Shown here: positions 8,184 through 60,968 of the stretch, piece after piece
Layout: each line of letters opens with the position of its first letter
Position numbering within the stretch: position 1 is the stretch's first letter
Assembly: GCA_000306725.1 (NCBI GenBank)
Contig: CP003083.1
Span: forward strand, 2,282,042-2,346,041
Direction of reading: 5' to 3'
Source of the DNA: Methanolobus psychrophilus R15
Lineage (GTDB): Archaea; Halobacteriota; Methanosarcinia; Methanosarcinales; Methanosarcinaceae
Length of the DNA stretch: 64,000 bases
Notes under the pieces: generated by a model
The model's database searches: none
Seen by the model: the letters and a program-made list of their open reading frames with translations, nothing else
What the model was told of the DNA's origin: nothing
Made by a program: the position numbers and the translations under genes

Positions 8184-9662
8184 TCAAAACTGTTTCGGCT
8201 GTGACACATTCATTTTCACTAGGATTCCCTTTAATTCTTCATATATTTTCCTATCGAACTTCAATAACAAAATCCCATATATTACAGTCCCCACTACAAC
8301 TGGAATCAATGTTAACCACACATTCGACAGTGGCATTAACCACCGATATCCACCCAAAAACAATCCCATAACAATAGATGCCTTTAAAATATTCCACAAA
8401 CTGTTAGATTCCACTCTGATCGTTAGTATCTTCGATAATACCCATAGTGCCAAAACTGTGTTTAGTCCCGTAGTAATAAGGGTGGCAATTGCAGCCCCTA
8501 AAATCCCTATTAATGGGATAAATGATGCATTCAATACAATGTTTACCACAACTGAAACTACAGTGATTTTAAATAAATCTTTAAGATAATCCATTGCAGT
8601 TAGATAAGTAGTGAAAAAAAAATTAAATATACTCACAGTTTGCACAATGAACAATACTGCCATAGTCATATATTCTCGTCCAAACTCCGCACCGTAGAAA
8701 TAGTACAGGAGTTTATCTCCCAGTAAAAATCCACCTACAAGCATTGGTATGGCCACAACAAGTGAGTATGTAAACGCTCTAGGTAATGATTTTTCTATCA
8801 ATCTCATATCATTGGTCTTTCTCCAGCGGCTAACTCTTGGATATAGTGTTGATCCAAGTGCAACTGTTGTGAACGAGACCAGCAATGTAAATTGCAATAT
8901 TATACGGTACACACCTACATCTGCATTGTCAAGATAATAACCTATCATAACTGTATCTGCAGTCGAAAAGACTATACCACCACCTGATATCAAAAAAACC
9001 CACAATGAAAATGTTGATAAGCTTTTAATGTGCCTCCACCTAAAGCGCACAAAATGCAAATCGAAAAAACGCAGTTGAACTATGGAACTGACAACTATCC
9101 CTACTACAAAACCACCGGCAAGGCCTGCAACACCATAACCCATAAAAATCGCAACTATTTGAACAATTATGCGTGAAAAGCTATTAATAAATCCTGCAGT
9201 TGCACTGATTCCCATTTTTCCGCAGCCATTGATGCCACTTTGAATAACCCCTCCCAAAATTCCTACAATCAGCGACAGTATGAGCCAGATAAATATTCCG
9301 GAATCGTTGAGATTAACAAAATAACTGCGAAATGTAATTAATACCACCACTACCAATATCACAAAAACAGAGCGGAGTACGATAAAAGCACTGAAATACG
9401 CATCCTGTTCCTCTCCCTCACTGATGCGCTTGATTGCAGCTCCACCAAAGCCGCCGTCAGCCACCAGATTAATGATGCTAAGATACGCAAGAAACAGGAA
9501 ATATCCGCCCAACACGCTTGCACCCGCCGCATGTGCAAAGTATATTGTACTCAAGAAACCAATAAACGTAAGTGCAATCTGCCAGATGAGAGACGCTATG
9601 CTCTGACGTCTGATTGCATCTATGCTCATAATGCGTGAGACGAATGTTTCTAATTTGAACAT
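8184..9662 (-). CDS. Lipid-linked oligosaccharide flippase (Wzx/MATE-like)
   Basis: A 492-residue integral membrane protein with 12-14 hydrophobic segments, the length and pattern of the polysaccharide biosynthesis (RfbX/Wzx) branch of the MOP superfamily. The start LIWQIALTFIGFLSTIYFAH and the conserved internal GAAIATLI segment fit this family. It would move a lipid-linked glycan across the membrane. It lies between the nucleotide-sugar genes (gmd, uxs, manC) and the modifying enzymes of the same minus-strand operon. A second flippase in the window lies at 41.8-43.0 kb, so this one probably serves the first glycan only. Confidence 0.85.
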   Translation of the reverse strand: MFKLETFVSRIMSIDAIRRQSIASLIWQIALTFIGFLSTIYFAHAAGASVLGGYFLFLAYLSIINLVADGGFGGAAIKRISEGEEQDAYFSAFIVLRSVFVILVVVVLITFRSYFVNLNDSGIFIWLILSLIVGILGGVIQSGINGCGKMGISATAGFINSFSRIIVQIVAIFMGYGVAGLAGGFVVGIVVSSIVQLRFFDLHFVRFRWRHIKSLSTFSLWVFLISGGGIVFSTADTVMIGYYLDNADVGVYRIILQFTLLVSFTTVALGSTLYPRVSRWRKTNDMRLIEKSLPRAFTYSLVVAIPMLVGGFLLGDKLLYYFYGAEFGREYMTMAVLFIVQTVSIFNFFFTTYLTAMDYLKDLFKITVVSVVVNIVLNASFIPLIGILGAAIATLITTGLNTVLALWVLSKILTIRVESNSLWNILKASIVMGLFLGGYRWLMPLSNVWLTLIPVVVGTVIYGILLLKFDRKIYEELKGILVKMNVSQPKQF

Positions 9663-14240: not shown

Positions 14241-14330
14241 CCATCCTATGAATAGGATGGCTTCCTGCTTCATTCTTTCCCCTTGTGAGGACAAGTCCAC
14301 AGGCTCATTCCGTAGTTCCTACGGTGTTAT
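14241..14330 (-). ncRNA. Candidate omega-RNA/right end of the TnpB element
   Basis: On the minus strand the region just after tnpB holds three stem-loops in a row: 14310-14324 (6-bp arms, loop of 3), 14281-14303 (GGAC/GTCC core extended by CCT-GTG/CACAGG with a bulge) and 14241-14260 (9-bp perfect arms CCATCCTAT/ATAGGATGG, loop of 2). The last hairpin followed by GTTCACAC is the usual look of IS200/IS605 right ends. TnpB guide RNAs are made from this region and overlap the 3' end of tnpB, with the guide lying beyond the element end. The RNA itself is an inference from position and structure. Confidence 0.6.
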
Positions 14331-15439
14331 ATTCTAATTAAGTTTTGCTTATCAAGTGCAAACTTTTTGATATTAATAGCGGCATTAATATCTCGATCGT
14401 GATTGGTTTTACAATCCGGACATTGCCATTTTCTGTTTGCAAGTGTTAATTTACCGTTGTGATAACCACACATATTACAGATTTTAGTCGATGGCTCGAA
14501 TTGTCCTATACGGAGTATTGTTTTACCAAACCATTCTGCCTTATATTCCAGCTTGGATACAAAAGAACTCCAAGAAGCATCTGCTATGTGCAATGCAAGG
14601 CAATGATTTTTCAACATACCGCTAACGTTTAAAGTTTCCAATGCTAATGCTTGATTCTCACCTATCAGCTTAGAGGATAATTTATGTTGAAAATCATTTC
14701 TTTGGTTGCTTATCTTTTCATGGAGTTTTGATACTTCTAATCTGGCTTTTGCTCTGTTCTTTGAACCATTTTGCTTTCGACTCATCCTTCTTTGAAGGGC
14801 ATTAAGGCGTTCTAATGATGTTTTAAGGTATTTTGGATTATCTATTTTTTCACCATTGGAAAGAACTGCAAAGTCCTTGATTCCAACATCGATACCAACA
14901 GTTACCTTTTCGTTGAACAGACTTTTAACGGGTGTTTCCTGTTTATCATCTACAAGAATGCTGATGTAATATCTTCCAGTTGATGTTCCGGATACAGTAG
15001 CTGTTTTTTCAATACCCTTAAATTTACGATGTAGTTTTGTTTTTATCCACCCAATCTTAGGAAGTTTTATTTTATTGTTATCAAAATCCACTTCGTAGAA
15101 TTGAGGTACTGAAAAAGATTGTACTTGATTCTTTTTAGATTTAAAAGTAGGAAATCCCTTTTTCTCTCTAAAAAATTTAGTAAAAGCATTTTCAAGATTA
15201 AGAGTAGCACCCTGCAACGATTGGGAATTTACATCCTTCAACCATTCGTGTTCTACTTTCAAACCAGTTATCATTTTATTCAAGGTGAATCTTGATACTG
15301 ATTTACTATCTTGTTGATATGACTTGATTTTGTGTTCTAAAGCCCAATTATAGACAAACCTACATGCACCAAAGTGTTGATAGAACAGCTCTTCCTGCTC
15401 TTTTGTAGGATATATTCTGTACTTATAGGCTTTCAACAT
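14327..15439 (-). CDS. tnpB: TnpB, IS200/IS605-family RNA-guided nuclease
   Basis: 370 residues from the ATG at 15439 (MLKAYKYRIYP); the frame is open to 15466. The N-terminal helix-turn-helix/OrfB block FRFVYNWALEHK-like sequence is present as CRFVYNWALEHK. The RuvC triad can be seen as D in VGIDVGIKDFAVLSNG, E in LALETLNVSGM and D in NHDRDINAAINI. The zinc ribbon is CNMCG with CPDCK. All key residues are intact, so it is probably active or recently so. No tnpA lies beside it, so this is an IS1341-type stand-alone copy. It sits between the glycan operon start and the NfnAB-like genes. Confidence 0.93.
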   Translation of the reverse strand: MLKAYKYRIYPTKEQEELFYQHFGACRFVYNWALEHKIKSYQQDSKSVSRFTLNKMITGLKVEHEWLKDVNSQSLQGATLNLENAFTKFFREKKGFPTFKSKKNQVQSFSVPQFYEVDFDNNKIKLPKIGWIKTKLHRKFKGIEKTATVSGTSTGRYYISILVDDKQETPVKSLFNEKVTVGIDVGIKDFAVLSNGEKIDNPKYLKTSLERLNALQRRMSRKQNGSKNRAKARLEVSKLHEKISNQRNDFQHKLSSKLIGENQALALETLNVSGMLKNHCLALHIADASWSSFVSKLEYKAEWFGKTILRIGQFEPSTKICNMCGYHNGKLTLANRKWQCPDCKTNHDRDINAAINIKKFALDKQNLIRI

Positions 15440-15676
15440 ACAAACATATATCCAATTTAATATCATTTATAATTAGTGTTAAATCGTGGAAAGAACATGT
15501 TTTGCAGGATAGACGTAATTCATCCCCGTTTGAATATAGTGGTCTTTTTAATCAAACGTGATAATCGGACAAGTCATAGTCCTTTTCCTACTGCTCCTAC
15601 TTAAATCTTAAGTACTAGAACTCTAATCATATGCACTATTTCTATCAATAATTATCAATCCCTAACAGGTGATCAC

Positions 15677-29786: not shown

Positions 29787-29876
29787 GTAAAAAAGATAAA
29801 AGAATGACGCACTAGGCGTCATAAGTATTTATGTTTAGAACCTGACGTTCATGTCTGCAATCATCTGCTGGCTTGC
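29787..29876. repeat. 90-bp direct repeat, left copy (pilin C-terminus and terminator)
   Basis: Identical base for base to 60404-60493. It covers the last 14 codons of the pilin (ASQQMIADMNVRF), the stop and about 48 non-coding bases with the terminator hairpin. The identity stops sharply on both sides. Confidence 0.95.
29804..29822 (-). terminator. Terminator of left pilin gene
   Basis: ATGACGC and GCGTCAT form a perfect 7-bp stem with a 5-base loop. On the minus strand it is followed by TCTTTTATCTTTTTT, a U-rich tract, about 13 bases after the pilin stop. Confidence 0.7.
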
Positions 29877-30365
29877 TGTGTCAACAATCTTGACGTTGAC
29901 TGTGGAACTCGGAGTTCCGACATCACTAGTGTTAGTTGCACTTGAAGCATCGCTCTTAAGACCGATTGTCATGGTGCCATCATCATTGAACACATAAATT
30001 GTGCTACCTGCCACAAACTCATAATTATCTCCTAAGTTTGTGCCCATAGTGCTGACGGGGGTTTCATTAACTACTATTCTCACATTGCTGAGATAGAAGT
30101 TGTCTCCACCTTGGTGTTCAATTTTGACTGTCTTATTGTCACCAACGGTCTCAGCGCTACCTCTCAGACTTGCCTGTGGTGCCTGCTCAGGTGGTCCCAT
30201 GCCGAATACGAATGCTGCGATTACTGCAGCGAGAATGACAGTGATTGCGACCATCAGGATTACGCCGATGACCGGGGATACTGCATCCTCTAAGGGTTTA
30301 TTTTGCGATTTAAAGGTAGCATAGGCCTTCTTTTTCTGTATGGTCACCCTTTGGGGTGTGAACAC
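29835..30365 (-). CDS. Type IV pilin-like protein, left copy with displaced 5' end
   Basis: The pilin body has the class III signal-peptide site and N-helix EDAVSPVIGVILMVAITVIL followed by AAVIAAFVFGMGPPEQ, and a C-terminal domain ending in MIADMNVRF. Prepilin peptidase would be expected to cut after DA, before VSPVIG. The normal start is missing: right of 30291 the sequence no longer resembles the sister gene, the frame opens only at GTG 30365 (or GTG 30347), no SD is present, and the leader MFTPQRVTIQKKKAYATF is unlike pilin leaders. It may be silent. The 69-bp repeat end coincides with the loss of homology, which points to an integration junction. The body aligns with the right copy at both ends but differs in the middle. 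Confidence 0.75.
   Translation of the reverse strand: MFTPQRVTIQKKKAYATFKSQNKPLEDAVSPVIGVILMVAITVILAAVIAAFVFGMGPPEQAPQASLRGSAETVGDNKTVKIEHQGGDNFYLSNVRIVVNETPVSTMGTNLGDNYEFVAGSTIYVFNDDGTMTIGLKSDASSATNTSDVGTPSSTVNVKIVDTASQQMIADMNVRF
30223..30291. repeat. 69-bp direct repeat in pilin gene, left copy (proposed attL)
   Basis: Identical to 60846-60914. It encodes the pilin segment from the signal-peptide site through part of the N-terminal helix. Left of it both copies continue as related pilin sequence; right of it they are unrelated. The integrase start at 30369 is 77 bases away. Confidence 0.85.
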
Positions 30366-30368
30366 ACA

Positions 30369-31217
30369 ATGGTATCAGATGCTATGAAAAATTTGAGTGC
30401 GTATGTGAAATATGAAGACTTCCTTGAATTTGAAAATGCGGCACGTGAATATGAAGATTACGCTGTACGGAAGAAAGCAAGGGACGGCGAATATTCTTTA
30501 CTAATCAGGCTGCTGTTTTACACAGGCGCCCGTATATCAGAGATTGTAGGTAGTAATCAACGGATTTTCACTCAATGTCTGTTTCCCGGATTCAAAAAGC
30601 GGAAAGGTCTGTGTCCTAAGTGGGCATTAACAAAAGATGATAAAACTTGTATTGATGGCGGGTGCAAGTACCTGACTGCATATGTACAAAAGGCACATCA
30701 TGGAATCCGTGTTAAAGATATTGTTTTCAAGGACAGGATAATCGCTGTTTATGGAAAAAATGTTAAATCTGATGAATTAAAGGCACGTACTGTCATTATT
30801 GATATTGAAACCCTTGATATGTTGAAAGCACATATTGAAAAATATTCTTTGCGCCCGAGTGACAAAATTATCAGCATCAATGAAAACGGAAGCAAGGTCT
30901 TAATCAATACTCTGCGTGGCATTGTAAAGATGCCTTGGATATCTGCACACAAATTCCGTCATGGTCATGCGATATTTTGTATTCAGGGTGGCATGGATAT
31001 AAGGACATTGCAGCAGCAGCTTGGCCATTCCGATTTAGGGACGACTGCTATTTATTTGCAATTCGCAACCAGTGAGCGAAAAAAATCATATGATAAAGTC
31101 TTTGGTAAGAAACCTGACCATGTGAAAGTGCAATGTCCTTCATGTGGTTTTACATATAGACTTAAGCAATGTAAAGATATTGAACTGGGGGATAAATTAA
31201 AATCAATATTTGGTTAG
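30369..31217 (+). CDS. Tyrosine recombinase/integrase with zinc-binding insertions
   Basis: 282 residues from the ATG at 30369 (GGGGTG eleven bases upstream; the frame opens at 30303). Catalytic residues are visible: R55 in YTGARISEI, a candidate K130 in VYGKNVKS, H194 and R197 in AHKFRHGHA, H220 in QLGHSDLGTTAIYL and Y229. A Cys-rich insertion lies between R55 and K130 (C70, C82, C94, C99), and a C-terminal CPSCGFTYRLKQC looks like a second metal knuckle. The gene begins 77 bases from the 69-bp repeat, the place expected of an integrase beside its attachment site. A palindrome-like GTGTG-AA-CACAC lies just before the start and may be a binding site. Confidence 0.88.
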   Translation: MVSDAMKNLSAYVKYEDFLEFENAAREYEDYAVRKKARDGEYSLLIRLLFYTGARISEIVGSNQRIFTQCLFPGFKKRKGLCPKWALTKDDKTCIDGGCKYLTAYVQKAHHGIRVKDIVFKDRIIAVYGKNVKSDELKARTVIIDIETLDMLKAHIEKYSLRPSDKIISINENGSKVLINTLRGIVKMPWISAHKFRHGHAIFCIQGGMDIRTLQQQLGHSDLGTTAIYLQFATSERKKSYDKVFGKKPDHVKVQCPSCGFTYRLKQCKDIELGDKLKSIFG

Positions 31218-31784: not shown

Positions 31785-31806
31785 TATATATAAGTGCTTA
31801 TATATA
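31785..31806 (+). promoter_or_regulatory. 22-bp palindrome/TATA region before ribbon-helix-helix gene
   Basis: TATATATAAG-TG-CTTATATATA is a perfect palindrome with a 2-base centre, 47 bases before the ATG at 31854. It overlaps the only good TATA box of the operon. CopG-type proteins bind such operators and repress their own genes; autoregulation here is inference. Confidence 0.5.
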
Positions 31807-31853: not shown

Positions 31854-32012
31854 ATGAAAAGTAAAATCATGATAACAGTTGATGAAAGTACTTTAGAAAG
31901 TTTTGATGAAATGCTTCAATTAAGAATGATTCCTCGCAGCAGGTTTTTTGAAAGGGCAATGAAGAACGAACTTGAAAATTGGGCAATGAAAGGTGATAAA
32001 AATGGATTATAA
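31854..32012 (+). CDS. Ribbon-helix-helix DNA-binding protein (CopG-like)
   Basis: 52 residues from the ATG at 31854, with AAGGAG eight bases upstream (the frame opens at 31794). KIMITVDESTLESFDEML is the beta-strand plus first helix and RMIPRSRFFERAMKNELENW is the turn and second helix of a ribbon-helix-helix fold. It is probably a dimeric repressor of the small operon and replication gene that follow. It overlaps the next gene by 11 bases. Confidence 0.75.
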   Translation: MKSKIMITVDESTLESFDEMLQLRMIPRSRFFERAMKNELENWAMKGDKNGL

Positions 32013-32232
32013 TAAAGAATTAATGGGATTGGAAAAAATCGAAATGATGAGTATATTACTAGAAGGGTACTTTTCAAGAAGTTCCCAAGAGAAATTTTTT
32101 CTCGTGCAGAACCAAAATGTAAAGTTTCTCTGCATTAACGGAAGAGATACAAAACTCGCTGCAAGCGACTTAAAAGCTATAGGTATACTAAAAGAAGGTA
32201 ATGCTATGAGTTTTTATTCAAAAATCAAATAA
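32002..32232 (+). CDS. Small hypothetical protein
   Basis: 76 residues from the ATG at 32002, with AGGTGA five bases upstream, overlapping the end of the ribbon-helix-helix gene. The protein has two helical-looking parts (LMGLEKIEMMSILLEGYF) and a beta-rich middle (FFLVQNQNVKFLCINGRD). No family is recognised. It is co-transcribed with the regulator and the large helicase-like gene, so a role in replication or copy control is possible but unproved. Confidence 0.6.
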   Translation: MDYNKELMGLEKIEMMSILLEGYFSRSSQEKFFLVQNQNVKFLCINGRDTKLAASDLKAIGILKEGNAMSFYSKIK

Positions 32233-32256: not shown

Positions 32257-34743
32257 ATGATTACAAAAAATACTGAAATTGAAAGTGAGACCCCTGCCAC
32301 AGAGTCGCAAACGAAAGTAACTACAAATGTTAATTATACAGATGATATATATAAACATAATGATAAGACTGAAAAATCAGACCGTAATAACACATCTACC
32401 ACTCAAAAATCAAAAACCTTCAAAAATGGGTTGGATAGAAAAATCGTAATTGAAATAATAAGAACACTATATAATGAACTATACAAAGATAGACCTGATG
32501 AAGAATTAGGAATCCATAATGAAATATACAGAAAACTAGTGAAAAGCAAAGCCCCATTTCATTTTCTATATCGTGGTGATAGTCGTAATATGGATGGAGA
32601 TACACCCATCGAAAACTTGAAAATTCTCTATGAAAAATACGGACATTTGACGAACGAAGATAATAAAAATTATATATATGGCAATGTATTTCAAAATAAT
32701 ATTAATAGTAATATTAATGAAAATGAAAAAGTGACTCTCGTTACAGAGTCACAAGAAAAAACAACTAAAAATGTTGATATAAAAGATGATTTACCTCTAC
32801 ATCATGGTAACGTAGAAGATAAAAAAAGCATAAAAAAGAAAAATATTAAAATTGAGAAAAAGAAATTTAACCGAAAGAAAAAAACTAATAAGATCCATCT
32901 TTTTTATGATGTCAACAAAAAAGTGGACATTCTAATTTCTGATAAAGATGCAGATTGTACGAACGAACTAATAGCATGGCAACCAGGATTTGGAAAAACA
33001 AAGAAAGCTATTGATGAAATTACAAAAAATCCAGATGATTATTATATCTATATAACAAGTTCTCATCGATTACTTGCCGAAACTGAAAAAAATATTCTTA
33101 AAGAAAATCCAGATGCAAAATGCCTTATTATTGAAGGCTTCAAAAGAAGCTGTCACATCTTGCAAGATGAAAAAAACCATGACTATGAAAGAGTTTTGAG
33201 GTTCTACAATCAAAACGTGCATCCTGCAAACATTTGTATTCGCATGGGATGTAAAAACCGATGCAAGTATAAAGAACAATGGAGCCAAATTAGAGACGAT
33301 AAAGGAAATTTATGCACAAATATCCTATGCACTTTGAATCACATGAGTCTTTTCGATTTTAGAGATTTCAAAAAAGTATTCATCGATGAATCGATAAATG
33401 CTAATGGAAGATATGAGTATAGATACAATCATCCTTTTGCAGTGTGGGCTTTGAAAAAATTGGAACCCAACCTGAAGCAAAATTTTTATTATATGATTTT
33501 GGAAGCACTTCAAAAAAAACATGGGAAAATAATTCTAAAATATTACGAACTTTTGGACAAAATGGTTTTTGATTACAATAAAGCTATTTGTAAAATATAT
33601 AAAGAGGAAACGGACAATAAATTGATAAATAAACTAATAAAAGTAAGATTTAGTCAAATCGGGTTATACCTTGTTTATCGCCAACGGGAATTTGAAAACA
33701 ATCTGAGAAAAGTTCAAAATAAATACAATCCATTTCCAAAACATAACAATGAAAAGGATATAAACAAAAGTGAATGCTACCGAAACGAAGCACTTGATAA
33801 AAAAGTTATAGGATACACTTACATTCCACCAATTCTAACTGAATTTGCAGAAGATGAAGATCGAGCTGATTACGATAAAGCATTTTCAGATGATTCAAAG
33901 AAAAATGCAATTACAGTAACCGATGCTCTCAATATTTTAAATAAACTTAAAGAAGATGAAATTGAGCACTGTATGAAAATAGCAGAGACGGCTAATACTA
34001 TAAGCATATCATGGCATCAATTGGCGATGTACAAACAATTGTTTGAAGGAAATGATATTACATATATGGATACGACATTACAATTCACAAAAAGTTCATT
34101 CATTCAAGAAATAAAAGATTTTCAAGAAATATTTCCTGAATATAAACAGATATTGACATACAGCTATACGGAGGAGAAAAATAAAAATTCAGTTGTCAAA
34201 ATCAATTTCAGGCAGGGCAATTATAAAACCCATATTGAAAAATATATCGAAAAACTGAAACCGAAAATTAAAAAAATAATTGATAATCATAGAGCATTAC
34301 ACCCTGATGATAAAATATGCATCCTGACTTTCAAAAAGCTAATAACTAATGATGAAACAGCAGATCCATATAAGATGTATAAATTTATGGGCATAGATGC
34401 TTATTGGTTTGGTGGTGCCGGTGGTGTTAATGCTTTCAAAGGATATAAGAAACTTATTGTGGTTGGCACGCCAATGCCGCCTGAAGATTGGTATCAAAAA
34501 ACGTGGGAAACTCTTTATGGTGATGCGCCATTTCCAGAAAACACAGACATAGTTGATAATGGAATGTGGATGCTTCCGGAGGATGAGAAGCTGAGCCAGA
34601 TGTTTAAGGAAACGTGGTTTGGCGAAATATATAATGCAGTCCATAGGGTAAGACCACTTCAGAACGATACAACAATACATTGGTTTGGAAAGAATCTACC
34701 AGAGCAGATTGTAAATGAACTATCAGTTGAAGTCACGATTTAA
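32257..34743 (+). CDS. Large SF2 helicase-like protein with Cys cluster, candidate replication protein
   Basis: 828 residues, Lys/Asn-rich. Walker A is AWQPGFGKTKKAIDEI (243-248). Cys residues at 299, 327, 332, 336, 353 and 358 lie between Walker A and the DES box (VFIDESI, 375-380), the place where XPD/DinG helicases hold an Fe-S cluster. A late KLIVVGTPMPPEDW and VHRVRPLQND look like motifs V and VI. The N-terminal 200 residues are low complexity and hold an internal duplication (TESQTKVTTNV at 15-25 and TESQEKTTKNV at 163-173). As the largest protein of the element's left end it is the best candidate for its replication initiator or helicase. No exact family is recognised. Confidence 0.6.
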   Translation: MITKNTEIESETPATESQTKVTTNVNYTDDIYKHNDKTEKSDRNNTSTTQKSKTFKNGLDRKIVIEIIRTLYNELYKDRPDEELGIHNEIYRKLVKSKAPFHFLYRGDSRNMDGDTPIENLKILYEKYGHLTNEDNKNYIYGNVFQNNINSNINENEKVTLVTESQEKTTKNVDIKDDLPLHHGNVEDKKSIKKKNIKIEKKKFNRKKKTNKIHLFYDVNKKVDILISDKDADCTNELIAWQPGFGKTKKAIDEITKNPDDYYIYITSSHRLLAETEKNILKENPDAKCLIIEGFKRSCHILQDEKNHDYERVLRFYNQNVHPANICIRMGCKNRCKYKEQWSQIRDDKGNLCTNILCTLNHMSLFDFRDFKKVFIDESINANGRYEYRYNHPFAVWALKKLEPNLKQNFYYMILEALQKKHGKIILKYYELLDKMVFDYNKAICKIYKEETDNKLINKLIKVRFSQIGLYLVYRQREFENNLRKVQNKYNPFPKHNNEKDINKSECYRNEALDKKVIGYTYIPPILTEFAEDEDRADYDKAFSDDSKKNAITVTDALNILNKLKEDEIEHCMKIAETANTISISWHQLAMYKQLFEGNDITYMDTTLQFTKSSFIQEIKDFQEIFPEYKQILTYSYTEEKNKNSVVKINFRQGNYKTHIEKYIEKLKPKIKKIIDNHRALHPDDKICILTFKKLITNDETADPYKMYKFMGIDAYWFGGAGGVNAFKGYKKLIVVGTPMPPEDWYQKTWETLYGDAPFPENTDIVDNGMWMLPEDEKLSQMFKETWFGEIYNAVHRVRPLQNDTTIHWFGKNLPEQIVNELSVEVTI

Positions 34744-34773: not shown

Positions 34774-34868
34774 CATCAATAACAACTGTGTAAAGGTTAG
34801 TGCTAAAATCGGGGAAAACCGTGTAGTAAAAGCACTAACCTTTAGACTGTTTACATAGTTGCTTGATG
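34774..34868. repeat. 95-nt near-perfect hairpin after the helicase-like gene
   Basis: Three nested arm pairs: CATCAA/TTGATG (34774-34779 and 34863-34868), CAACTGTGTAAA/TTTACATAGTTG (34783-34794 and 34850-34861, one G-U) and AAAGGTTAGTGCT/AGCACTAACCTTT (34792-34804 and 34831-34843, perfect). The 26-base tip holds CGGGGAAAACCG. About 30 pairs form in all. It could be a replication origin, a recombination site, a terminator or a tiny transposon. It is far longer than an ordinary terminator. Confidence 0.75.
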
Positions 34869-35436
34869 ATTTGATTTATCAAGCAAAAACAGGTAGTTTT
34901 TGAACTTTATAATAAATCTGTTGAAGAATAAACAGCAATCGGGTGAACGTGCATTTATTGTATATTATATTAATAACTAAGGGATTCTTTCCTCAGCGGT
35001 CCTGATATATTTTATCTTGGCTGTGACTATACTCAATATCATATTTCAAGTCGATTTAAGACCAATTATTATAAAGCACAGCCCAAACTACCTTTTTAGT
35101 GATAAATCATCAATCTGGCAGGGGTTTTGGTGGGTTCCTGACGGATACAGGGCAAGTATCTATCATAGAAATAATATTTATCTATGATAAAACAATAGGC
35201 ATACACATAAAAATAATAACTTCATACAAGTTTGCTCCAACCCGCCTGAAGTTGCCTTTCAAAGGATCTTGAACGCTGACCCGAGCCAGACAGAGTACAG
35301 GATGAGTAAATACTTGATGTTCTGAACTAAGCAATATCAATTGATAGTTTATGCTATCTTTTTTCATTAGTTTCAGTGATTTCATCGGCTGAAATATAGC
35401 AATCATAATTCTAAAATTTACAGTGCAATAATAAAT
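34869..35436. other. Non-coding stretch with a terminator-like hairpin
   Basis: No convincing gene. TATCATAGA and TCTATGATA (about 35160-35190) form a 9-bp stem. The short minus-strand frame at 35182-35406 has no SD or recognisable content. Confidence 0.35.
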
Positions 35437-35516: not shown

Positions 35517-36578
35517 ATGATAATGAACAACAATGAAAACAAAACTCAAATACCAAGGACATCCAGCAGTCCAAAACTAACTGGAAAAGAAAAAGATTGT
35601 ATAGTTAAGGGAATTATTCTGCGAGGATTGCTCGAAAAACAGCCCATGAGAAGCAGAGAACTCTTTAATTCAATCCCATATGACAATTATGACTCCTTTC
35701 GTGTGATTTTGAGTCGTTTTTCTAGCTCGAAATATCGATATATTGAGAAGATTGGCCACAAGATGCCTTACTTATATCGACTGACTGATATTGGCAGAGT
35801 CCATGCCCAAAATCCGTTCTATTTCAGGGATAAATACAGAGCTCGGCAGGCAAAAGATAGAGAAATATATCTTTCCGAATTACTCAATGATCCAAGCAAG
35901 TTAAACTATTTTTTTGGCAATGTTGCCAGTAGTGAAATCAAAACAATATTCAATACCGTCAAAGAATACGTGGACTCAAACTCAAGTATGAGAGATTTTG
36001 GGGACGAGGACGATAGCCATCAATCTGCAGATGATGAAGAAAACGATTTTGAAGAGAAGTATTACACCTTGCAGGAAGAAATCAAGCAACTGAAGACTCA
36101 AAACTTCAATTTACAACTGAAATTGAATCAAAAACCTGCGCCAATTCCAAAGGCTCCCGAAACAAAATTGCCCTCCGCATCCAAAGGCAAACGATATGAC
36201 TATCTCTGTAGTTGGGACGGGAAAGTGCTCACATCAAGCTTCTTCGAAAGTGAGCTCATTCCATATGATGTGTTGATTAAGACCGCTGACAAAAACACAA
36301 TCAGCTCTTGGAAGAAAAAATTAAATCTTGAGTCAGATGAAAATATTGATATTTTCGCAAGAAACATATCCTCAACTCTGATTAAAGAGCGTCTTTATCG
36401 GAAAGCATCGCCAGAAGAAATCAAAGAAGCAGGCTTTTATTTGGTTAGAAATCGTGGAATCCGGATTCTATCGAAAAAATATTCAACAATTAATAAAGTA
36501 GTGTTGAAACAGTCCGATATTCCTGCATCTCCTAGGAATACGCCACAAGCCAATATTGTCGATAAAAACCGTAGATGA
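35517..36578 (+). CDS. Winged-helix and coiled-coil protein, unknown function
   Basis: 353 residues. Residues about 25-105 look like a winged helix (EKDCIVKGIILRGLLEKQPM, RSRELFNSIP, then YLYRLTDIGRVHA as the wing). Acidic and coiled-coil sequence follows (DDEENDFEEKYYTLQEEIKQ) and then a C-terminal domain of about 130 residues that starts GKRYDYLCSWDGKVL. No family is recognised. It follows a promoter with two palindromic operators, so it is probably a regulated element gene, perhaps a replication or partition factor. Confidence 0.55.
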   Translation: MIMNNNENKTQIPRTSSSPKLTGKEKDCIVKGIILRGLLEKQPMRSRELFNSIPYDNYDSFRVILSRFSSSKYRYIEKIGHKMPYLYRLTDIGRVHAQNPFYFRDKYRARQAKDREIYLSELLNDPSKLNYFFGNVASSEIKTIFNTVKEYVDSNSSMRDFGDEDDSHQSADDEENDFEEKYYTLQEEIKQLKTQNFNLQLKLNQKPAPIPKAPETKLPSASKGKRYDYLCSWDGKVLTSSFFESELIPYDVLIKTADKNTISSWKKKLNLESDENIDIFARNISSTLIKERLYRKASPEEIKEAGFYLVRNRGIRILSKKYSTINKVVLKQSDIPASPRNTPQANIVDKNRR

Positions 36579-36754: not shown

Positions 36755-37072
36755 ATGAAAACAAATACGATAAAAATCTCCGATGAAGCAAATCAAAAAA
36801 TAAAAATGCTGATGGCAAGAAATGACATGAACTTTTCCGAAGCAGTAGAATTCCTTGCTATGTTAGTCCCGACGACATCAACTCCAAAAACTAGCAAACT
36901 TGAGACCGAGCTATCAAGTATACAAATGCAAGCTTTCAACATTGCTGAATACACTCAGGAAATCATTCAAGAATTCAGGAAAACAGGCTCTTTTCCCATT
37001 GTAGCATACCATGATTATGTCATGATGTGTACTGGAATGATTCGAAGTGATGCTGAAGATATGCGTAGTTGA
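36755..37072 (+). CDS. Ribbon-helix-helix regulator with C-terminal extension
   Basis: 105 residues. NTIKISDEANQKIKMLMARN and MNFSEAVEFLAML form the ribbon-helix-helix fold. The rest (about 50-105) is helical (ELSSIQMQAFNIAEYTQEII) and may mediate oligomer contacts. AAGGA precedes the ATG. Repeated AT-rich words upstream suggest it controls its own gene. Confidence 0.65.
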   Translation: MKTNTIKISDEANQKIKMLMARNDMNFSEAVEFLAMLVPTTSTPKTSKLETELSSIQMQAFNIAEYTQEIIQEFRKTGSFPIVAYHDYVMMCTGMIRSDAEDMRS

Positions 37073-37413: not shown

Positions 37414-38379
37414 TTGATATGTCCTGAATGCGCCACATATTCGGTCTATTATCATCAAAGATCAAATGAGTGGATGTGTAAGCAGTGTGGTATAGCTGTT
37501 CATGTCCAGAGATCAGTGGAAATCTTCAATTTAGACTTTACAGACAGAGAGAAGTATAAGATCTACACTTTTTATGGGATTAATGCTCTAGTTAATTTAA
37601 CTGGTTATTCCAAGAGGAAAGCAGAAAACTTTGTAAAGAAGGTTTTTGAAGACTTCTGTACAACAAAAGGGAATCAATGCCCCTACATCAATTATCTTGA
37701 AAATTCAAATTTGGCTAAAAAAGGAGAATTAATTGAAAGAAGGTTCATTTATTCAATGAATGCGTATATTTCTTTAATGGATGAGGTCGAAGTCTTTTTG
37801 AGCAAGCTGACAAATGAAAAGAACCTCCCTGAAGATGAAACAAAACAGGTTATTGATATTTGCGCTTCTTTGAAAGAGGATCTGGAAGCAATGATCGAAG
37901 GATTGGAAGAATTTGTTGTTGCATCTGCCAGTGCTGATCTCACAAGAGGTCAGAAAGTTTATCTTAAAGAAAATGGGGAATATTTGACTGCGACACTGGA
38001 TGAAGATGAGATTGAGGGGTTCTGCTGGAATGATGCAAAAAAAGGAGAGTTCGTTGGTGTTTGTTTTTTCCCACCAGATTCGTTTTATGTAATTAAGCGC
38101 CACTTTGGAAAAATAAGAGACAAATACAAGAATAAACCCACTATATCTGCTCTTAAGCGAGTTCACGATCCTGAATTCACTTTATTGGAACAACAGGCAT
38201 TATCTCTTATTTCTAATAATGGGTTCTATTTTCAGTATGAGATCGGGAAAGAATTGGGTGTGGATAGCAGGAAATCTTCCAGAGTTATTCGATCATTGGT
38301 GGATCAAGGATTGATAATTAGAGAGCCAGCTGCTTCTTCGAATGGTGCCAGAACTTATAAGCTGCAAGTAAAAAGTTGA
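37414..38379 (+). CDS. TFIIB-type zinc ribbon and winged-helix DNA-binding protein
   Basis: 321 residues from TTG 37414; the frame is open upstream to 37354 (GEFGIGPLSEKSLFDEETRLL) without an ATG or a normal SD, so the real start may be upstream at a rare codon. The zinc ribbon is CPEC-x15-CKQC, the spacing of TFB N-terminal ribbons. The middle is helical with another Cys pair near residue 80-90. A C-terminal winged helix is TLLEQQALSLISNNGFYFQY, then IGKELGVDSRKSSRVIRSLV. No cyclin folds of TFB are evident. It is probably a transcription regulator of the element. Confidence 0.6.
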   Translation: MICPECATYSVYYHQRSNEWMCKQCGIAVHVQRSVEIFNLDFTDREKYKIYTFYGINALVNLTGYSKRKAENFVKKVFEDFCTTKGNQCPYINYLENSNLAKKGELIERRFIYSMNAYISLMDEVEVFLSKLTNEKNLPEDETKQVIDICASLKEDLEAMIEGLEEFVVASASADLTRGQKVYLKENGEYLTATLDEDEIEGFCWNDAKKGEFVGVCFFPPDSFYVIKRHFGKIRDKYKNKPTISALKRVHDPEFTLLEQQALSLISNNGFYFQYEIGKELGVDSRKSSRVIRSLVDQGLIIREPAASSNGARTYKLQVKS

Positions 38380-53145: not shown

Positions 53146-53721
53146 ATGAAATATAATAAACAGTGGTTACGAGAAGAAGAGCTTGAAATGATGTTAAGTA
53201 AACCGGATATTCCAGAAAAATACGAAATCTGGCTACTTTTGATGTATACGCCCGGATTGAGGGTCAGTGAGGCTCTTAACGTTAAGGTACGTGATTTAGA
53301 TATGAAAAACGGATGTATTGACATTTGGGGTGGGAAAGGAAGAGATGATACCGAAATGCAAAAGGCAGTTTGTGATATCAAAATCCTTAAGCGGATTAAG
53401 CGTTTTTGTGAACATTCAGACCTTCGACCAAATGATTATATCATGTTTAGTCAAAAGTCCAAACAGGTTCATCGTTCTCAGGTGTATAGAGTCCTTAACG
53501 ATATATGTCATGATGTTGGAATTGACAAGACAATTGGTACTCACACCATGAGAAGATCACGGGCAGAGCATCTATTGGATAGGGGGCTGCCAATAACGTT
53601 TGTAAGTAAATATTTACGCCATAAGAACTTGTCAACGACAATGAAATATTTAGATGTCTCCGTTGCGGATATTCAGAGAGAGATGGAGAAAATCGATGAT
53701 AATGTAGGAACGTTAGTTTGA
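53146..53721 (+). CDS. Short tyrosine recombinase (XerC/D-like catalytic domain)
   Basis: 191 residues. It is nearly all catalytic domain: R39 in YTPGLRVSEALNV, K64 in WGGKGRDDTE, H133 and R136 in GTHTMRRSRAEHLL, H159 in YLRHKNLSTTMKYLDV and Y168. The N-terminal core-binding domain is mostly missing, as in other short archaeal integrases. All catalytic residues are present. It may resolve dimers of the element or belong to an older element nested here. An IS remnant starts 8 bases after its stop. Confidence 0.88.
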   Translation: MKYNKQWLREEELEMMLSKPDIPEKYEIWLLLMYTPGLRVSEALNVKVRDLDMKNGCIDIWGGKGRDDTEMQKAVCDIKILKRIKRFCEHSDLRPNDYIMFSQKSKQVHRSQVYRVLNDICHDVGIDKTIGTHTMRRSRAEHLLDRGLPITFVSKYLRHKNLSTTMKYLDVSVADIQREMEKIDDNVGTLV

Positions 53722-56734: not shown

Positions 56735-57834
56735 TATAGTGTTCAACGCAACTTACTACACGTATTAATGTTTATCTTATCTTATGGCGGGGAAAGAACA
56801 AATTCTGATTGACCGAAAGGTAATTCTCGACGAGATTAACGATTTGATCACACACGAGAACAATTCAAGAGTGTTGAAAAGGCTCTATTTTGTTAAATTT
56901 AGATATTTAGGGGATTCTGTAGAAGAAGCTGCTACTAAAGTAGGAGTGACTAAGAAAACAGGATATTGCTGGCAAGAAAGTTGGAATAAAGGCGGCTATG
57001 CCGCCTTAATGCCAAATTTTGGCGGAGGTAGGAAATCCAAACTTACTGATGAACAAAAAAAGGAATTAAGAGCTTTGTTGGAAAATAAGGATTACTGGAC
57101 TACAAGAGAAGTCTGGAAGTTAATAAAGGAAAAATATGGCGTAGAATATTCAGAGAAACAAGTAGGAGTTATACTTCACAGTTTTAACATGTATCACTCA
57201 AAGCCATATCCCCTTGACTACAGAAGACCTAAAAACGCTGAAGAGATCTTAAAAAAACTAACCGAAGCAATTCCAAAACATATTGGTCAAGATGAGCAGT
57301 ATATCATAGGTTTTCTGGATGAATCTTCACCACAAACAAAAGCAAACACGCAAAGATTATGGTCATTTAAAAAACCGTTGATAATAAAAAATACGGATTA
57401 CGTTAAAGCAAATGCATTTGCGTTTTATTCGATCAACGGGAACAGTATCATTGATTTTATGAAAAGCTCAAAAACAGAAGATGTGTGTGAATTCCTGGAA
57501 AAAATTGTAGAGCAAAACCCAGGGAAAAGAATAATTCTTGTTCTCGATAATGCAAGATCGCATCATGCAAAGAAAACGATAAGTAAAGCGAGAGATTTAA
57601 AAATAACACTTGTGTTCCTACCACCTTATTCACCTGATCTAAATCCAGTAGAATTTGTCTGGAAAACAATCAAAAGAGAAGTGTCAGTCAAATTTGTCAA
57701 ATCAAAAGAACATTTGAGGAATATTATCAAAATGGAATTTATGAGGATAGAGAGCTCATTATCGTTTGCAAAAAAATGGATGGAAACATTTAATGCACAA
57801 ATAAAAAGTGTGATTTGTTGAGTTAGAGACTATA
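56735..57834. mobile_element. IS630-family insertion sequence
   Basis: About 1.1 kb. The ends TATAGTGTTCAACGCAA (56735 onward) and, on the other strand, TATAGTCTCTAACTCAA (from 57834 inward) are imperfect inverted repeats matching at 13 of 17 positions, each with the TA expected of IS630 target duplication. The transposase fills it. Appears intact. Confidence 0.75.
56784..57821 (+). CDS. IS630-family transposase
   Basis: 345 residues. The N-terminal helix-turn-helix pair (VEEAATKVGVTKKTGYCWQE and TTREVWKLIKEKYGVEYSEK) is followed by the DDE core: FLDESSPQTKANTQRLWSF, ILVLDNARSHHAKKTI and FLPPYSPDLNPVEFVWKTIK. All three acidic residues are present, so it may be active. It lies in an AT-rich part of the element and does not interrupt a recognisable gene. 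Confidence 0.93.
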   Translation: MAGKEQILIDRKVILDEINDLITHENNSRVLKRLYFVKFRYLGDSVEEAATKVGVTKKTGYCWQESWNKGGYAALMPNFGGGRKSKLTDEQKKELRALLENKDYWTTREVWKLIKEKYGVEYSEKQVGVILHSFNMYHSKPYPLDYRRPKNAEEILKKLTEAIPKHIGQDEQYIIGFLDESSPQTKANTQRLWSFKKPLIIKNTDYVKANAFAFYSINGNSIIDFMKSSKTEDVCEFLEKIVEQNPGKRIILVLDNARSHHAKKTISKARDLKITLVFLPPYSPDLNPVEFVWKTIKREVSVKFVKSKEHLRNIIKMEFMRIESSLSFAKKWMETFNAQIKSVIC

Positions 57835-60403: not shown

Positions 60404-60493
60404 GTAAAAAAGATAAAAGAATGACGCACTAGGCGTCATAAGTATTTATGTTTAGAACCTGACGTTCATGTCTGCAATCATCTGCTGGCTTGC
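60404..60493. repeat. 90-bp direct repeat, right copy (pilin C-terminus and terminator)
   Basis: Identical to 29787-29876. Includes the stop at 60452 and the terminator hairpin. Confidence 0.95.
60421..60439 (-). terminator. Terminator of right pilin gene
   Basis: Same ATGACGC/GCGTCAT stem and U-rich tract as at the left pilin. Confidence 0.7.
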
Positions 60494-60943
60494 GACGTCA
60501 ATGATAAGGACATTGATTGTCTCACCAGATGCAGCGAGGCCTTCACTGGGTGTTCCAACGCTGGTAATGTTTCCTACAGAGAGTTTACCGGCACTTGAGT
60601 TGTACACATAGAGTGAATCACCTGCAACGAACTCACCAAGCCCAGCTACAAACTCAGCGTTACCTGCATTTGTAGTATTACCAGATATTGTAATTCTGGT
60701 ATTCGTAGAAGCCATGAAAATGGCATCTCCGCCCTGGTGCTGGAGTTTAACTACAGATTTCTCTGCAACAGTATCAGCAGTTGACCTTATGCTCGCCTGC
60801 GGTGCCTGCTCTGGTGGTCCCATGCCAAAGACAAAAGCTGCAATGACTGCAGCGAGAATGACAGTGATTGCGACCATCAGGATTACGCCGATGACCGGGG
60901 ATACTGCATCCTCTTCCTTAAGGAATTGGTTTGATTTGCTCAT
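60452..60943 (-). CDS. Type IV pilin-like protein, right copy with normal start
   Basis: 163 residues from the ATG at 60943, with AGAGG eight bases upstream (the frame opens at 60964). Leader MSKSNQFLKEEDA, then VSPVIGVILMVAITVILAAV; prepilin peptidase would be expected to cut after DA. The variable middle (EHQGGD-type QHQGGDAIFMASTNTRITIS) is followed by the C-terminal block shared with the left copy. It follows a small conserved gene on the same strand by 25 bases and so has what looks like its native 5' setting. In the integration model its N-terminus is chromosomal and its C-terminal domain came with the element. Confidence 0.85.
   Translation of the reverse strand: MSKSNQFLKEEDAVSPVIGVILMVAITVILAAVIAAFVFGMGPPEQAPQASIRSTADTVAEKSVVKLQHQGGDAIFMASTNTRITISGNTTNAGNAEFVAGLGEFVAGDSLYVYNSSAGKLSVGNITSVGTPSEGLAASGETINVLIIDVASQQMIADMNVRF
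60846..60914. repeat. 69-bp direct repeat in pilin gene, right copy (proposed attR)
   Basis: Identical to 30223-30291. The pilin gene continues normally on both sides here, to a normal start on the right. The distance to the left copy is 30,623 bases. Confidence 0.85.
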
Positions 60944-60968
60944 ATATGTTCCTCTCTCATTCAAAAGT

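Follow-up and report, generated by a model that had tools for sequence, protein, structure and literature searches.

A new mobile-element-borne branch of XPD/DinG-like helicases, adjoining a conserved hairpin, in a likely replication module of Methanosarcinales integrative elements

The sites used by known archaeal integrative elements are mostly tRNA genes (PMC8371274), and in SNJ2 the rep gene is directly followed by a hairpin in which the experimentally tested origin of replication lies (PMC13107129). Here, we describe an element of Methanolobus psychrophilus R15 in which a helicase gene is followed by a hairpin and the site of integration is a type IV pilin gene. The window, that is the whole stretch of 64,000 nucleotides analysed, covers positions 2,282,042-2,346,041 of a single-contig genome of 3,072,769 bp. 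We consider it reasonably probable that the helicase gene and its surroundings form the replication module of an integrative, plasmid-like element, with the helicase acting at a hairpin origin. The pilin-gene attachment site may perhaps be the more surprising half of the finding, and it is set by the following features:

30223..30291, no strand: attL core, a 69-bp exact direct repeat identical to 60846-60914; it adjoins the integrase
60846..60914, no strand: attR core, the second copy of the 69-bp repeat, within the 5' part of a pilin gene (60452-60964, minus strand)
30303..31217, plus strand: tyrosine recombinase (integrase; PF00589, E=3.9e-16; phrog_1 integrase, E=2.8e-24)
53146..53721, plus strand: second, small tyrosine recombinase (PF00589, E=2e-29)

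The element is a 30.6-kb island inside the type IV pilin gene and is bounded by the 69-bp repeats; five relatives (L050, L051, L053, L054, and L055) have the empty site, with a single pilin gene and without the island. Homology to the left flank stops at 30291 in four of these relatives and at 30306 in the fifth, and the right-flank match in all five resumes from about 60786; L051 additionally matches, weakly, the sequence next to the pilin. The attL core falls within the 5' part of the pilin gene at 29835-30365 (minus strand). After insertion, the pilin gene at 60452-60964 keeps the native promoter and start, now joined to a body carried by the element, and the original pilin body is left headless beside the integrase. 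Thus, integration appears to swap the host pilin, since the copy that keeps the promoter has an element-derived body. The integrase (for which an alternative start at 30369 gives 282 aa) has close relatives in six other genomes; in five of the six, as in the window, a pilin gene is cut at residue about 9-15 and is divergent beside the integrase. Within the att core common to these loci lies the coding sequence for PVIGVILMVA, a conserved stretch of the pilin N-terminus; the arms on the integrase side are alike too. A tRNA attachment site was rejected for the window element because the window holds no tRNA. Among the other helicase-bearing elements, L021 has a tRNA-Thr preceding its integrase, and L024, a sister element 7.5 kb long, is framed by 57-bp repeats from a tRNA-Ser gene, the only convincing direct repeats found in a search within 19 kb around the other elements.

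Several further observations concern the pilin locus and the cargo of the island. The 3' ends of the two pilin genes are identical over 90 bp (29787-29876 and 60404-60493) whereas their middles differ, a pattern suggestive of gene conversion or an exchange of cassettes. The pilin-site integrase family is present in at least six genomes, and L052, L102, L103, L104, and L105 carry different replication-type genes. A Fic-domain protein adjoins the locus in L052 (5153-6457) and L051 (5318-6622), and variable genes seem to concentrate at the pilin locus. The small recombinase at 53146..53721 is of a type of about 190-200 aa, devoid of the N-terminal domain, that recurs at a distance in L020, L023, L102, and L103; it is possibly a dimer resolvase. 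Between 38739 and 53000 lie dTDP-rhamnose genes of the island together with flippases and glycosyltransferases, and the insertion may therefore have altered not only the pilin but also surface glycans; given its size and its sugar and surface-glycan genes, the island may also be composite. A DDE transposase (IS630-like, DDE_3) is located within it at 56784-57821, and an IS200/IS605-type OrfB (TnpB-like, judged from its Zn-finger and sequence) is found elsewhere in the window at 14327-15466 (minus strand).

The genes and sites next to the integrase are the following:

31785..31806, no strand: operator-like perfect palindrome TATATATAAGTGCTTATATATA, an exact 22-bp dyad (0.02 expected in the window)
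31854..32012, plus strand: ribbon-helix-helix (RHH) protein, Arc/CopG-like (PF01402, E=0.0032, below the curated cut-off; Arc-like phrog_3180, E=0.007)
31993..32232, plus strand: 79-aa protein, an open reading frame only, with no family match
32257..34743, plus strand: XPD/DinG-like SF2 helicase, 828 aa, intact, with a 4-Cys cluster between motifs I and II
34784..34861, no strand: conserved hairpin, origin-like; arms 34784-34804 and 34831-34851, alternative outer arm 34850-34861
34960..34976, no strand: AT box (TATATTATATTAATA type), from k-mer enrichment
35517..36578, plus strand: winged-helix DNA-binding-like protein with a coiled middle, a conserved element partner (63% identical to an L023 open reading frame)
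36755..37072, plus strand: small RHH-like or coiled protein (sequence inspection only; no family match)
37414..38379, plus strand: Zn-ribbon protein with a C-terminal MarR-like winged helix (MarR, E=4e-4)

The order integrase, RHH gene, helicase, intergenic region, and winged-helix gene is common to the window, L017, L018, L022, and L023, with parts of it in other elements. The integrases adjoining the helicase belong to different families across elements, and the helicase set is therefore inherited apart from the integrase. RHH genes occupy the matching position in L017, L018, L019, L022, and L023, and the window protein is a probable autoregulator. A sequence-only reading of this DNA had placed an RHH gene and an operator before the helicase; the gene is borne out by a PF01402 match (E=0.003) below the curated cut-off, and the operator corresponds to the exact, operator-like dyad. 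The same reading proposed a self-contained replication module of a new plasmid or virus type, and the recurring set of integrase, RHH, helicase, hairpin, and winged-helix protein bears out the module and its replication logic, though not the word virus. The integrase next to this set, the attachment site in the pilin gene, the 30.6-kb island, and the sibling elements had escaped that reading. Weaker homologues of the winged-helix protein are present in several elements, and its N-terminus (residues 23-98) is predicted to adopt a helix-helix-helix-wing arrangement (model pTM 0.35). The N-terminus of the Zn-ribbon protein is weakly like archaeal replication factor A (NF006255, E=8e-4, far below the cut-off), a likeness compatible with the replication reading and too weak to count. 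The AT box is common to the helicase-downstream regions of most elements and is a candidate unwinding element or promoter; ATATAATAT k-mers alone were set aside as evidence because these regions are AT-rich.

The helicase belongs to a family with a narrow distribution. A second copy, 26-29% identical, was detected in the window's own genome by whole-genome search, and alignable homologues exist in ten more genomes, from 44% identity at best (G041) down to about 20% where the genome belongs to a different family within the order. In a sample of 393 genomes drawn from the whole phylum seven had a match, all in one family; a search of the genome-contig collection returned one relative. Homologues were thus found in Methanosarcinales-like genomes only, and most of them adjoin integrases. 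Neither Pfam, NCBIfam, PADLOC, nor PHROGs contains a model that matched the window helicase, even weakly, DEAD_2 (PF06733) and Helicase_C_2 matched neither it nor its homologues, and single-sequence searches of Pfam, PHROGs, PADLOC, NCBIfam, and the PDB gave nothing useful. Several differently built queries found no relative in viral, phage, and plasmid collections. The second copy in the same genome (L016) has a 17-bp repeat only and no obvious adjoining integrase, and its boundaries were not found. The L021 homologue contains an in-frame TAG (8763-8765), which could be pyrrolysine read-through, as the lineage may decode TAG in this way, or the mark of a broken gene.

Within the protein, the sequence-only reading had correctly located PGFGKT (residue 243), DES (377), and HRVRP (796); the cysteines between Walker A and DES number seven (289, 299, 327, 332, 336, 353, and 358) and not the six it had counted. 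In alignments of 10-12 sequences, distant homologues included, Cys299, Cys327, and Cys336 are invariant and Cys332 nearly so. The cluster is placed like that of the XPD/DinG Fe-S domain, and the protein would, judging by these residues, hold a 4Fe-4S cluster. Across 12 sequences the invariant positions include, besides C299, C327, and C336, G246-K247 (Walker A), H270, E378 (DE box), T691, G723/N725, and R797/R799. The N-terminal duplication noticed earlier is also genuine: residues 7-63 align to 155-213 with a score of 70, against a mean of 41 and a maximum of 58 in 100 shuffles. It lies in a 215-aa extension otherwise unique to the window copy, a search for which elsewhere returned itself and one marginal partial match only.

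Structure prediction is the main guide to the affinities of this family. In the AlphaFold2 model the core is confident from residue 220 onwards (pLDDT about 90), except for the disordered 492-559, and two RecA domains are present, whose lack the earlier reading had named as grounds against its assignment. With this model, Foldseek ranks XPD (5h8w, E=1.8e-7) first in the PDB, followed by TFIIH Rad3, DinG 6fws, Xpd4 2vl7, and CasDinG, while the VIA structure aligner places DinG 6fws at the top (Z 14.3 over 442 residues); by the VIA score alone the XPD/DinG branch cannot be singled out, because other SF2 helicases follow closely at Z 12-13. The family profile against the PDB has Xpd4 first at a non-significant E=0.03-0.06, and hhalign of the family with the XPD of the same hosts gives E=6e-4 at a probability of 29% only, the aligned span beginning exactly at Walker A and ending at the first Fe-S Cys. 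Compared by eye, the motifs that come later correspond as well: C-x3-C-x-Y followed by an NH motif ahead of the DE box, a motif III that is degenerate (S/D-A-T/S), and a motif V in which G-[VIL]-N-x-[FYW] replaces G-x-D-[FY]. A DExx-type box with invariant E378 replaces the canonical DEAH, and HRxRP, with R797 and R799 invariant, replaces the QxxGRxxR of motif VI. The predicted model thus retains two RecA-like domains and the SF2 motif order, and four conserved Cys are present between motifs Ia and II. From these correspondences of motifs and fold the helicase very probably works like the XPD/DinG branch and is a distant relative of it, in line with the likeness to XPD/DinG Fe-S helicases noted by the sequence-only reading; it is not filed as a member of either XPD or DinG because it lacks the family-profile match, the DEAH box, and the canonical motif VI. 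The UL9/herpes origin-binding family, considered on account of HRVRP, was not preferred because in the viral fold list it reached E of about 1e-3, well below the best matches. Overall, the helicase stands for a new branch of XPD/DinG-like SF2 helicases that is carried by mobile elements, here integrative plasmid-like elements of Methanosarcinales.

The DNA immediately 3' of the helicase is conserved as well. The hairpin at 34784-34851 (z=-6.4 folded as DNA), pointed out by the sequence-only reading, recurs in homologous loci: long stems lie 40-265 nt past the helicase stop codon in the window, L017, L016, L019, and L022. A hairpin above threshold was obtained in five of ten helicase-downstream regions (simulated mean 0.23, maximum 1) and not in L018, L020, L021, L023, and L024. 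At the start of the arms is ACTGT(C/G)TAAA or a sequence close to it; ACTGTSTAAA stands at the base of the window hairpin. Nine matches to this 10-mer occur in the 6 kb 3' of the helicases, spread over five of the ten loci (simulated mean 0.04, maximum 2, in 2000 simulations), with no exact copy in 183 kb of flanking sequence; among 112 genomes of the family, the paired motif is present in only two places, both directly 3' of a helicase homologue. Between the window and L017 the inner stem has changed on both sides and still pairs (GGTTAGTGCT/AGCACTAACC versus GGTGAGTAAAA/TTTTACTCACC), and a CGCTATC-like repeat also recurs near the hairpins. Judged by these patterns, the hairpin and its 10-mer would be replication origin-like DNA beside the helicase. 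Its stable folding so soon after the stop codon would also suit a terminator of transcription or a structured RNA element within the helicase mRNA, the helicase then working without the hairpin. We find this improbable: no known RNA family explains the hairpin, as Rfam has no match in 28-39.5 kb of the window, no consistent T-tract follows it, and its most conserved part is a 10-mer whose repeats are inverted, and direct in L020, an arrangement more in keeping with the binding of a protein than with an RNA stem.

Replication as the function of the module is favored because three lines agree, namely the origin-like adjoining DNA, the SNJ2 precedent, and a swap of genes in sibling elements. In L102 and L103, both with pilin-site integrases of the window type, the helicase is replaced by, respectively, a D5_N/DUF5906/Pox_D5 primase-helicase, whose gene comes straight after those for the integrase and the RHH protein, and a protein that combines an AEP primase with a ResIII-like domain. 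We propose that the tyrosine integrase would recombine the element circle into the 5' end of the pilin gene and that, after excision, the helicase would be the main replication protein of the element. The putative origin, lying close behind the 3' end of the helicase gene, would comprise the hairpin with its ACTGTSTAAA arms; the hairpin might extrude, or be bound by the helicase or the winged-helix protein, and the XPD/DinG-like motor could then load on the exposed single strand and unwind. Host primase and polymerase would copy the unwound strand, and the RHH protein, by binding the TATA-like palindrome, would keep helicase expression low. No primase or nickase was recognised in the window element, so that initiation would depend on the host; nor was there a credible match to a Rep endonuclease with a catalytic Tyr among the element proteins scanned. 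For the presumed circular form, no circular relative was found in the plasmid, phage, and viral collections searched. The proposal is further weakened by the lack of the hairpin in half of the homologous loci, by the possibly composite make-up of the large island, and by the departures from the canonical DEAH box and motif VI.

The helicase might instead serve excision, transfer, or repair of the integrated element, with the hairpin as a recombination or oriT-like transfer site. Its tight linkage to integrases would fit such a role, XPD and DinG are repair helicases, and hairpins mark oriT in many elements. Yet the helicase stays while the adjoining integrase families differ, the hairpin lies 3' of the helicase, away from the att site, and no relaxase was recognised among the proteins scanned; we therefore regard this role as unlikely. 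We are equally doubtful of a defense or competition factor borne by the element, in the manner of CasDinG for type IV CRISPR, and without a part in replication. Helicases are common in defense islands and CasDinG is among the nearest folds, but PADLOC has no match for the window helicase or the four homologues scanned, the slot of the helicase holds primase-helicases in sibling elements, and the recurring partners are the integrase, the RHH and winged-helix proteins, and the hairpin, with no recurring Cas or other defense partner. Least probable of all is a provirus with unrecognised capsid genes, for although the element is integrated and has RHH and winged-helix regulators, capsid genes of archaeal viruses are often unrecognisable, and Methanolobus has inoviruses (PMC6813254), it has no relative in IMG/VR or INPHARED, the 7.5 kb of L024 leaves little room for structural genes, and the other island genes are mostly for sugars and glycans. 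The virus type of the sequence-only reading is accordingly not supported, as no credible match to capsid, packaging, or spindle-virus hallmark genes was obtained in the element proteins scanned (Pfam/PHROGs) and the viral, phage, and plasmid collections held no relative.

Returning to the replication module, a broader claim can be put forward only tentatively, and we rate it as rather unlikely at present: that these elements are archaeal replicons of a new class, initiated by a stand-alone Fe-S helicase of the XPD/DinG type that loads at an extruded hairpin without a nickase, primase, or Orc1/Cdc6 of the element, and that some of them swap the major pilin of the host when they integrate. If true, replicon initiation would join repair, transcription, and CRISPR interference among the roles of Fe-S SF2 helicases. 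How most archaeal mobile elements replicate has yet to be explained, and the helicase and hairpin cassette offers a directly testable methanogen replicon; vectors for methanogens are scarce, and this compact cassette occurs with unrelated integrases. The pilin attachment site and the pilin body supplied by the element, in turn, link mobile-element integration to a change of surface structure.

Compared with known systems, the window element resembles the SNJ2-type Rep-Arvir module in being an integrative archaeal element, and its putative replication gene is likewise followed directly by a conserved hairpin (PMC13107129). The SNJ2 hairpin serves as an origin, and its window counterpart is predicted to do so. 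However, Rep-Arvir is a rolling-circle endonuclease with a MarR domain, whereas the window gene is an SF2 helicase in an element with no recognised nickase. With archaeal tyrosine-integrase elements it shares an integrase at one end and att direct repeats, and some helicase elements (L021 and L024) also share the tRNA-gene sites; the window element and five others differ in using a type IV pilin gene (PMC8371274). XPD/Rad3 of TFIIH and archaeal XPD, the best structural match, have in common with the window helicase two RecA domains, a Cys cluster placed between motifs Ia and II, and, following motif II, a long insertion that is helical and arch-like; on the other hand, the window helicase has no PF06733 match, DExx in place of DEAH, and HRxRP in place of QxxGRxxR. 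XPD is also a housekeeping protein, of which the host has its own, while the window helicase is the gene of a mobile element. DinG and CasDinG are alike in fold, DinG 6fws being the top VIA match, and a DinG-like protein (L061) shares with the window helicase the C-x3-C-x-Y pattern followed by an N-x-H-like motif. Conversely, likeness to them in sequence is below detection, and the window helicase is accompanied not by a CRISPR or exonuclease partner but by an integrase, an RHH protein, a winged-helix protein, and a hairpin.
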